Assembly: GCA_947631595.1 (NCBI GenBank)
Contig: CANRLZ010000001.1
Location: 1 to 64,000, forward strand
DNA length: 64,000 nucleotides
Direction of reading: 5' to 3'
Source: an uncultured Oscillospiraceae bacterium
GTDB taxonomy: Bacteria; Bacillota; Clostridia; Oscillospirales; Oscillospiraceae
This document shows positions 5,038-16,097 of the stretch, one piece after another. How positions within the stretch are numbered: position 1 is the stretch's first letter; each line of letters opens with the position of its first letter. Position numbers and translations under genes: made by a program. The notes beneath the pieces are model-generated. The model worked only from the letters and a program-made list of their open reading frames with translations. It was not told the DNA's origin and did no database searches.

Positions 5038-5153
5038 GCCGCCTCGTCGATCTCCTTCCGCGCCTCGGCCTCGTTGTCCGCGGAGAACTGAAACGCCCCC
5101 GCCAGATAGACCTCCACGTGCCCGTTCACATACCGAAGTTCATACCCGTTCAT
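5034..5153 (-). CDS. Small ORF, 39 aa
   Basis: MNGYELRYVNGHVEVYLAGAFQFSADNEAEARKEIDEAA with strong SD (GGATAGGAGG) 7 nt upstream of ATG. Confidence 0.6.
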   Translation of the reverse strand: MNGYELRYVNGHVEVYLAGAFQFSADNEAEARKEIDEAA

Positions 5154-5157
5154 AACA

Positions 5158-5211
5158 AAACCTCCTATCCGTCCGTACCGCTTCCTTACGGTACTTTAGG
5201 ATAGGAGGTTT
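5158..5211 (-). promoter_or_regulatory. Stem-loop (13-bp outer stem plus 6-bp inner stem) containing the SD of the 39-aa ORF; may also terminate the permease transcript
   Basis: On - strand: AAACCTCCTATCC TAAA GTACCG TAAGGAAG CGGTAC GGAC GGATAGGAGGTTT, then TGTTATG. Arms 5199-5211/5158-5170 and 5189-5194/5175-5180 are perfectly complementary. Confidence 0.8.
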
Positions 5212-5247: not shown

Positions 5248-6615
5248 TCAATATTTGCCCAGGTTGCCGGAGTCGCCGCCGCCCTGGAACTCGTAGTCCT
5301 TGCCGGGGAGGATGGCGTTGAGCAGGATGCCGGCGATGGCGGCGATGGCCAGGCCGGTGAGGGTGATGGAGGCGCCGCCCACCTGGAAGGTGAGGCCGCT
5401 GGAGAAGCCCAGGCCGCAGACCAGGACGGTGGCGGCGATGATGAGGTTCCGGGACTTGGTGAAGTCCACCCGGTTCTCCACCAGGTTCCGCACGCCGATG
5501 GCGGAGATCATACCGTAGAGGATGAAGCTCACGCCGCCGATGATGGCGGAGGGGATGGAGCCGATGAAGGCGGCGAACAGGGGGGAGAAGGAGAGGATCA
5601 GGGCGTAGAGGGCGGCCAGGCGGATGACCCTGGGGTCATACACCCGGCTGAGCACCAGCACGCCGGTGTTCTCGCCGTAGGTGGTGTTGGCCGGGCCGCC
5701 GAACAGACCGGCCAGGGAGGTGGCAAGGCCGTCGCCGATGAGGGTGCGGTGCAGGCCGGGGTCGGCCAGGTAGTTCTCGCCCACGGTGGCGGAGATGGCG
5801 GACATATCGCCGATGTGCTCCATCATGGAGGCGATGGCGATGGGGGCCATCACCAGGATGGCGGAGAGGTCGAACTTGGCGATGGAGCCGGTGAAGTCGG
5901 TGAAGAAGGGCTGGAGGCCCAGCACCTGGGAACCCTGCATGCCGGAGAAGTCAATGAGCTGGGGACCGCCGGCCAGGGTGACGATGAGGGCGACTACGTA
6001 GCTGCCCACCACGCCCAGGAGGATGGGGATGATCTTCACCATGCCCTTGCCCCAGATGTTGGCCACGATGATGATGGCCATGGCCACCAGGGCCAGCCAC
6101 CAGCAGGAGGAGGCGTTGTTGATGGCGGAGGGCGCCAGGTTCAGGCCGATGCAGATGATGATGGGGCCGGTGACCACCGGGGGCAGGAAGCGCATGACCT
6201 TGTTCACGCCCACCAGCTTGACCAGCAGCGCCAGAACCAGGTAGAGAAGTCCGGCCACCACGATACCGCCGCAGGTGTACTGGAGCTTTTCCGCCGGCTC
6301 CATGGTGGCGTAGATGCCGTCGCTGAGCTTGCTCATGGTCTCAAACCCGCCCAGGAAGGCGAAGGAGGAACCCAGGAAAGCGGGCACCTTCAGCTTGGAG
6401 CAGACGTGGAACAGCAGCGTGCCGAACCCGGCGAAGAACAGGGTGGTCTGGATGGACAGGGGCAGGCCGTAGCCCTGGACCAGGATGGGCACCAGGATGG
6501 TGGCGCCGAACATGGCGAACATGTGCTGAAGCCCCAGGATCAGCATCTTGGGCACGCCCAGCGCCCGGGCGTCCCGGACAGGCTCGGCGCCCACGTTTTT
6601 GACCTTCTCGCTCAT
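5248..6615 (-). CDS. Uracil/xanthine permease (NCS2 family, UraA/PyrP-like)
   Basis: MSEKVKNVGAEPVRDARALGVPKMLILGLQHMFAMFGATILVPILVQGYGLPLSIQTTLFFAGFGTLLFH...GENTGVLVLSRVYDPRVIRLAAL; LQHMFAMFGATILVP is typical of uracil permeases. Confidence 0.92.
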   Translation of the reverse strand: MSEKVKNVGAEPVRDARALGVPKMLILGLQHMFAMFGATILVPILVQGYGLPLSIQTTLFFAGFGTLLFHVCSKLKVPAFLGSSFAFLGGFETMSKLSDGIYATMEPAEKLQYTCGGIVVAGLLYLVLALLVKLVGVNKVMRFLPPVVTGPIIICIGLNLAPSAINNASSCWWLALVAMAIIIVANIWGKGMVKIIPILLGVVGSYVVALIVTLAGGPQLIDFSGMQGSQVLGLQPFFTDFTGSIAKFDLSAILVMAPIAIASMMEHIGDMSAISATVGENYLADPGLHRTLIGDGLATSLAGLFGGPANTTYGENTGVLVLSRVYDPRVIRLAALYALILSFSPLFAAFIGSIPSAIIGGVSFILYGMISAIGVRNLVENRVDFTKSRNLIIAATVLVCGLGFSSGLTFQVGGASITLTGLAIAAIAGILLNAILPGKDYEFQGGGDSGNLGKY

Positions 6616-6642: not shown

Positions 6643-6667
6643 AAAAAAATACCGGCTCTAAGCCGGT
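6643..6667 (-). terminator. Leader terminator (attenuator) upstream of uracil permease
   Basis: On - strand ACCGGCT-TAG-AGCCGGT followed by ATTTTTTT; 7-bp GC-rich stem, TAG loop. Confidence 0.85.
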
Positions 6668-6747
6668 GACAGAGAAAAGGAAAGGAAACGGGAAAAGACG
6701 ACCATGCCCGGCCGCGACAGCGTGACGTTCTCGCTCTTGGTAAACAT
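6658..6747 (-). CDS. Putative 29-aa leader peptide of the uracil permease gene
   Basis: MFTKSENVTLSRPGMVVFSRFLSFSLSPA; SD GGGAGGGG upstream; TAG stop falls in the loop of the leader terminator. Confidence 0.7.
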   Translation of the reverse strand: MFTKSENVTLSRPGMVVFSRFLSFSLSPA

Positions 6748-6778
6748 GGCGCTCCCCTCCCTTCACTCACTTCCAGGT

Positions 6779-6807
6779 ATTCTACCACACTCCCCGGAAA
6801 AAGGCAA
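6779..6807 (-). promoter_or_regulatory. Sigma-A promoter of leader peptide/uracil permease
   Basis: On - strand TTGCCT (6807-6802), 17-nt spacer, TAGAAT (6784-6779). Confidence 0.75.
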
Positions 6808-6841: not shown

Positions 6842-7012
6842 TCACTCCCCCTTGTCCATATGGCTCAGAGCGAACAGGATGCACTGGTTGATGAGTTCGT
6901 TGCGGCTGATGTCGAACTCCGCCGCCCGGCGGTCCACCTCCGCCAGAAGATCCAGGGGGAGGCGCATGGAGATGACTTCCTTTTCCGGCTTTTTGGGCAA
7001 AAATTTTTCCAT
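6842..7012 (-). CDS. Ribbon-helix-helix (CopG/Arc-like) regulator, 56 aa
   Basis: MEKFLPKKPEKEVISMRLPLDLLAEVDRRAAEFDISRNELINQCILFALSHMDKGE; beta-strand ISMRLP followed by two helices with SRNELI. Confidence 0.75.
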   Translation of the reverse strand: MEKFLPKKPEKEVISMRLPLDLLAEVDRRAAEFDISRNELINQCILFALSHMDKGE

Positions 7013-7036
7013 GGCAGATCCCTCCTCTTGACAAAT

Positions 7037-7088
7037 TATATTCGATATGCTACCATCACAACATATTCTAATTATGATATCGAATATA
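7037..7088. promoter_or_regulatory. 12-bp perfect inverted repeats (operator-like) in divergent promoter region
   Basis: TATATTCGATAT (7037-7048) and its exact reverse complement ATATCGAATATA (7077-7088), centres 40 bp apart. Confidence 0.75.
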
Positions 7089-7116
7089 GAATACATACGC
7101 AAAAGGAGGCACCACC

Positions 7117-15548: not shown

Positions 15549-16097
15549 GTGTCCTACGCGGAAAAAGACATTTTGAAGGTGCTGTTTACCCAGAAGGAGA
15601 TCGAGGCCAGGGTGGCCCAGATGGGGGCGCAGATCACCCGGGACTACCAGGGGAAGAACCTGGTGCTGGTTGGGATCCTCCGTGGGGCGTACATCTTCAT
15701 GGCCGACCTCACCCGGCACATCGACCTCCCCTGCCAGGTGGACTTTATGAGCGCGTCCTCCTACGGCAAGGGCACCACCTCCTCCGGCCAGGTGCGCATC
15801 ATCAAGGACCTCTCCGAGCCGGTGGACGGCAAGGACCTGCTGCTGGTGGAGGACATCCTGGACTCGGGCAACACCCTCTACTACCTGCGGGATATGCTCT
15901 CCGCCCGGAAACCCGCCTCCATCTCCATCTGCACCCTGCTGGACAAACCGGAGCGGCGGAAAAAGGACATCAAGGCCGACTACTACGGCTTCCAGATCCC
16001 CGACGCCTTTGTGGTGGGCTACGGCCTGGACTACGCCGAGGGCTACCGCAACCTGCCCTACATCGGCATCGTCAAGCCGGAAGTGTACGGCGGCTGA
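15549..16097 (+). CDS. hpt: Hypoxanthine phosphoribosyltransferase
   Basis: [21 protein letters not shown]...[10 protein letters not shown]...[14 protein letters not shown] (PRPP motif)...[19 protein letters not shown]. Confidence 0.95.

Follow-up and report, generated by a model that had tools for sequence, protein, structure and literature searches.

The uracil permease gene of an uncultured Oscillospiraceae bacterium is preceded by a leader whose parts follow the order of the enterobacterial pyrBI attenuator, and we consider it probable (about 0.62) that this gene is under the control of a pyrBI-type transcription attenuator that depends on coupling and needs no regulatory protein. The case is built from sequence comparison and combines a leader ORF of conserved frame and stop position, a tract enriched specifically in U, an intrinsic terminator, complementarity between the tract and the leader's own Shine-Dalgarno (SD) sequence, a near-exclusive association with the permease gene and the apparent absence of PyrR. 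A first-pass annotation of the same DNA had proposed a coupled UTP-sensing attenuator outside the enterobacteria, and our results support this interpretation, in which we infer that UTP is the signal. Coordinates refer to the window, the whole stretch of 64,000 nucleotides that was analysed, unless another locus is named.

Organization and conservation of the permease leader

All parts of the leader lie on the - strand. The proposed controlled gene (5248..6615, ATG at 6615, SD at 6630-6625) encodes a uracil permease of the NCS2 family, with a TIGR00801 score of 301 bits against a curated cut-off of 292. A candidate sigma-70-type promoter, TTGCCT-17-TAGAAT with an extended -10 TG (6779..6807; -35 at 6807-6802, -10 at 6784-6779; 9/12 in a consensus scan), is followed by a strong SD, AAGGGAGGGGAG (6752..6763), and by a leader ORF of 29 codons, MFTKSENVTLSRPGMVVFSRFLSFSLSPA (6658..6747), running from an ATG at 6747 to a TAG at 6660-6658. 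The ORF contains a U-rich tract with 29 pyrimidines in 31 nucleotides (6668..6698) and ends within an intrinsic terminator, ACCGGCT-TAG-AGCCGGT, A, T7 (6643..6667), whose 7-bp stem-loop (6667-6651) has the TAG stop as its 3-nt loop and whose T7 run occupies 6649-6643. Promoter, SD, 29-codon ORF, 29/31 tract, terminator and permease SD are all present as the first-pass annotation had described them. The conserved leaders also have a strong SD and a terminator in the same place, and an AT-rich -10-like hexamer is found at the equivalent position in many orthologous leaders.

Some of these parts are near chance when taken singly. A simple pattern scan for the terminator alone found 2 sites where 2.3 were expected from shuffles, the promoter pattern alone is likewise near chance, and the fold of the window leader (z = -1.55) is not unusually stable as a single-species structure. 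The case rests on the order of the parts and on their conservation.

To follow this conservation, permease loci were sampled from 101 and then 401 genomes of the family, plus GTDB genomes, giving 67 non-identical permease leaders with a terminator preceded by at least 20 pyrimidines in 36 nucleotides. In 61 of the 67, the SD-led ORF has its stop in the terminator stem region, compared with 4 and 10 in the +1 and +2 shifted frames (Fisher 1e-30). The first leader set, with ORFs of 18-38 codons, had given 28/32 in the same test, against 3 and 5 in the shifted frames. The ORF is open as far as the stem in 65/67 leaders; the two that close early (L040 and L318) probably reflect misassigned start codons, and an alternative start in L040 places the stop at -2 or -3. 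A few ORFs, such as those of L035 and L041, run through the stem as that of E. coli pyrL does.

Orthologous leaders thus keep both ORF and tract, as had been expected, and they do so without keeping the peptide: what is conserved is the frame, the position of the stop and the tract, and not the amino acids. The middle of the ORF could not be aligned among 28 leaders with MAFFT. Between the window and its congener L002, every ORF difference that we read alters an amino acid or the stop, and the tract shows no difference over 28 nt. The placement of the TAG in the terminator loop is correct for the window but not as a general feature. It is peculiar to the source species; L002 has a TAA at -2 in place of the loop TAG, and most relatives stop at -2 to 0 (39/67 leaders at -2, -1 or 0 of the stem).

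Variants of the permease leader that have no pyrimidine tract were seen in genus g23 (L003, L296, L306) and in L009. The terminator hairpin of L009 seems to have the SD and a 9-codon ORF inside it; L003 and L296 have another hairpin, GGCGTTTG/CAAACGC, around a different short ORF. The same permease with its attenuator was also found in metagenome-assembled genomes labelled Spirochaetales (L037 3001-4359 and L084 1141-2268, each with its leader), which may represent either horizontal transfer or mislabelled bins.

Composition of the tract and its predicted pairing with the leader SD

With the leaders aligned on the stem, pyrimidine content climbs from about 0.5 to 0.78 towards it. Across leaders, T makes up 51% of the tract, against 20% expected from locus GC (attenuator genomes have about 59% GC), and C shows no enrichment (26%, 30% expected). 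C content tracks GC (r = 0.54), a dependence that is nearly absent for T (r = -0.18). At codon positions 1, 2 and 3 of the tract, T reaches 47, 48 and 59%. The third codon position of GC-rich genomes is usually G or C, so that a maximum of T at this position suggests that U is selected for as a nucleotide. Enrichment confined to U suits the need of a UTP sensor; neither an amino-acid sensor nor a C-rich anti-SD strand would produce it. The motifs TTTCCC and TTTC are over-represented in the tracts beyond composition, and TTNTTT, a NusG pause motif, is in slight excess (58% of tracts, 46% of shuffled tracts).

The first-pass annotation had missed one element: the tract is also the predicted anti-SD strand of a hairpin that would close the leader's own ribosome-binding site. 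In the window, the 5' arm of this helix (6750..6768) comprises the SD and its upstream flank and the 3' arm (6672..6690) lies within the tract, with a predicted duplex energy of -26.3 kcal/mol. Pairing between the SD and tract regions recurs in nearly all of 32 minimum-energy folds that we inspected, usually with the whole ORF enclosed, and is also seen in the fold of the window leader. This complementarity is the new element of our analysis, and a hairpin of this kind would probably alter how the device works.

As a purine SD always pairs to some extent with pyrimidines, we tested whether the pairing is specific to cognate partners; gaps in the MAFFT alignment of the 28 leaders stood in the way of a formal covariation count, and cognate and non-cognate pairings were compared instead. 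Mean duplex energy was -19.8 kcal/mol for cognate and -17.0 for swapped pairs, or -3.8 and -1.3 relative to composition-matched shuffles. None of 20000 permutations reached the cognate mean (p<5e-5), and an excess remained when shuffling was confined to pyrimidines among themselves and purines among themselves (p = 0.00015), both p values being indicative since they are uncorrected for relatedness. Transcription of the tract is predicted to close the leader SD, whose opening falls from 0.51 before the tract is transcribed to 0.13 after. Shuffled tracts give 0.19, indicating that predicted closure is mostly compositional, with a smaller specific part. About 18% of the SD-tract pairs are wobbles between G of the SD and U of the tract, as if U-richness had been kept at the expense of helix strength.

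Association with the permease gene and search for PyrR

We assessed how specific the arrangement is in 0.9 Mb of fetched loci, which contain 361 terminator-like sites, 37 of them preceded by an SD-led ORF that stops at the stem. Those that also have at least 22 pyrimidines in 36 lie nearly all directly upstream of the permease, with one stray (L103). It is the combination, together with its conservation, that exceeds chance. A scan of 2 Mb of a relative's genome (G074), taken in stretches, returned the permease leader as the only convincing copy. A second candidate there (L208, around position 5841) was rejected, as it lies inside an apparently degraded coding region that resembles catalase by reading.

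Several observations count against the attenuator reading. A leader of this type is missing from some relatives of the permease, and that of genus g23 has no tract. No leader element was found within the 1.5 kb scanned upstream of pyrB and pyrD in the attenuator genomes, where a leader further up the operon is possible; this suggests that the element does not serve a general pyrimidine regulon.

The permease is linked to pyrimidine metabolism by its NCS2 family and also by its neighbourhood, as it adjoins pyrR in PyrR-bearing relatives (G073, G076, G004, G051, G084). The first-pass annotation had singled out pyrR as a gene to look for, and no PyrR gene above the curated cut-off was found in the 14 attenuator-bearing genomes, including that of the congener G077, compared with 21/87 of the others (p = 0.038; p = 0.043 among permease-bearing genomes). 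The anticorrelation between PyrR and the attenuator is modest, with p about 0.04. The source assembly is 79% complete and that of G077 100% complete; their best scores with the PyrR model, 29.6 and 36.7 bits, fall well below the cut-off of 138. The sole weak match in the source genome, at 15579-16004 (+) of the window, presumably encodes another phosphoribosyltransferase.

The Rfam PyrR element RF00515 has no match in the window or in the source genome, a silence that carries little weight because the model also failed on PyrR-bearing relatives. No Rfam family, riboswitches and T-boxes included, matched the window, with nothing relevant in the relatives, and no antiterminator overlapping the terminator stem appeared in the folds that we inspected.

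Proposed mechanism, alternative explanations and known systems

Based on the arrangement of the parts, we infer a sequence of events in which the leader SD would be open while RNA polymerase transcribes the leader. With an ample supply of pyrimidine nucleotides, chiefly UTP, polymerase would cross the U-rich tract fast, base pairing of the tract with the region of the SD and start codon would keep the leader untranslated, and the terminator would form, leaving the permease off; uracil would in this way repress the gene. At low UTP, polymerase would dwell in the tract and a ribosome could load while the anti-SD strand is still unfinished. This ribosome would trail polymerase closely and close up during the pause until, on the last codons, which are the tract and abut the stem, it would by geometry cover the 5' arm of the stem. 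Once polymerase resumes with the ribosome on the stem, the terminator could not fold, and readthrough would allow the permease to be made.

More tentatively, and at somewhat below even odds, we propose a joint reading of the element as a kinetic gate: the pause tract would double as the anti-SD strand, so that the time polymerase spends at the U's decides whether a ribosome loads on the leader. The same reading takes the leader to be a conditional coupling signal in a lineage with uncoupled transcription, to have an origin independent of enterobacterial pyrBI and to stand in for PyrR.

The cognate preference in SD-tract pairing and the over-represented TTTCCC and TTTC would also fit a tract that is only an anti-SD strand, in an RNA switch where leader translation, and thereby termination, responds to something else, be it a ligand, a protein or an RNA helicase, and not to polymerase pausing at low UTP. 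Such a switch should however favour a C-rich strand, yet only U is enriched and wobbles are tolerated; it also finds no conserved loop or aptamer to act through, the middle of the ORF being unalignable and Rfam without a match, and we regard it as unlikely. An ordinary leader peptide that stalls ribosomes in response to an amino acid, a drug or a general slow-down of translation seems less likely still. Phe and Ser are the commonest residues encoded by the tract and drug-sensing leader attenuators exist in Firmicutes, but the peptides are not conserved, the tract is a mixture of F/S/V/L/P/I codons with no run of any one, U is enriched at all codon positions, and the uracil permease is the only gene found downstream.

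We give very little probability to control by PyrR or another protein through an unrecognised binding site. The position of the permease next to pyrR in relatives and the poor sensitivity of the Rfam model speak in its favour, and against it stand the 14/14 attenuator genomes without PyrR above cut-off, the large shortfall of the two best scores and folds in which no antiterminator overlaps the terminator stem. It is just as improbable that the ORF means nothing and that the terminator behind it is partial and constitutive: although the unremarkable stability of the single-species structure would suit it, frame, stop position and U tract have been kept in dozens of diverged species. The pyrBI-type attenuator accordingly remains our preferred explanation of the leader.

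In E. coli and Salmonella pyrBI, termination is avoided only if transcription and translation are coupled across pyrL (PMC5021804, PMC4824070). The permease leader shares with pyrBI a short leader ORF reaching into an intrinsic terminator, a pyrimidine-rich tract just upstream, a pyrimidine gene downstream and no regulatory protein. Run through the same script, E. coli K-12 pyrL shows the same order of parts, with 28/36 pyrimidines upstream of the stem. In the predicted fold of this locus (L280, 2900-3034, -), the SD CGGGAGGA pairs with CTTCCCG of its own tract. The two systems differ in their target, uracil uptake here and aspartate transcarbamoylase there, and in their ORFs, which usually have 18-38 codons and end at the stem here, whereas the 44-codon pyrL runs through the terminator. 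Here the tract directly abuts the stem, and the predicted SD-tract helix is more extensive. The phylum is different, no sequence relationship was seen, the target operon is not pyrBI, and the pyrB neighbourhoods that we fetched have no such leader. We therefore classify the Oscillospiraceae leader as one that works like pyrBI and is not its homologue.

With the PyrR-controlled attenuators of Firmicutes, the leader has in common transcription attenuation of pyrimidine genes, including the pyrR-adjacent permease of relatives; there, however, PyrR binds an anti-antiterminator, while here neither pyrR nor such an element was found. Several other attenuators of Firmicutes respond to leader translation, most of them via a short ORF, namely those of bmrCD, yxjB, vmlR and the his leaders of hisS/hisZ (PMC4191407, PMC6851288, PMC9226507, PMC2965389). 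These sense ribosome-targeting drugs or amino acids via the ribosome, whereas the proposed sensor of the permease leader is the speed of RNA polymerase in the U-rich tract. Naville and Gautheret regarded regular leader peptides in Firmicutes, for histidine, as a notable finding, and we found no report of a pyrBI-like system in this phylum in the open-access literature, to which our search extended.

Should the attenuator work as proposed, UTP sensing by ribosome-polymerase coupling would not be an enterobacterial speciality and would have arisen separately in a major gut family of Firmicutes, taking the place of PyrR there. The leader would also be a direct test case for coupling, since it belongs to the phylum of B. 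subtilis, whose transcription runs ahead of the ribosomes (PMC9226507). As a proxy for uncoupling, we measured the distance from stop codon to terminator stem, which is below 12 nt for 40% of 116 terminators in G074 and for 2/14 in 204 kb of E. coli (p = 0.08). A single tract acting both as pause site and as anti-SD strand would be a simple design, open to test, and E. coli pyrL may use it too.

Two further features flank the permease and its leader on the - strand of the window. Just 3' of the permease, an inverted repeat at 5159-5210 (AACCTCCTATCC...GGATAGGAGGTT) would also mask the SD of a small ORF that begins near 5153 (MNGYELRYVNGHVEVYLAGAF...), and may be either the permease terminator or an SD-closing hairpin for this ORF. 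On the 5' side of the promoter, 6842-7102 encodes a small protein, presumably of the ribbon-helix-helix type, whose similarity to the BrnA antitoxin family is weak (24 bits, with a cut-off of 60).
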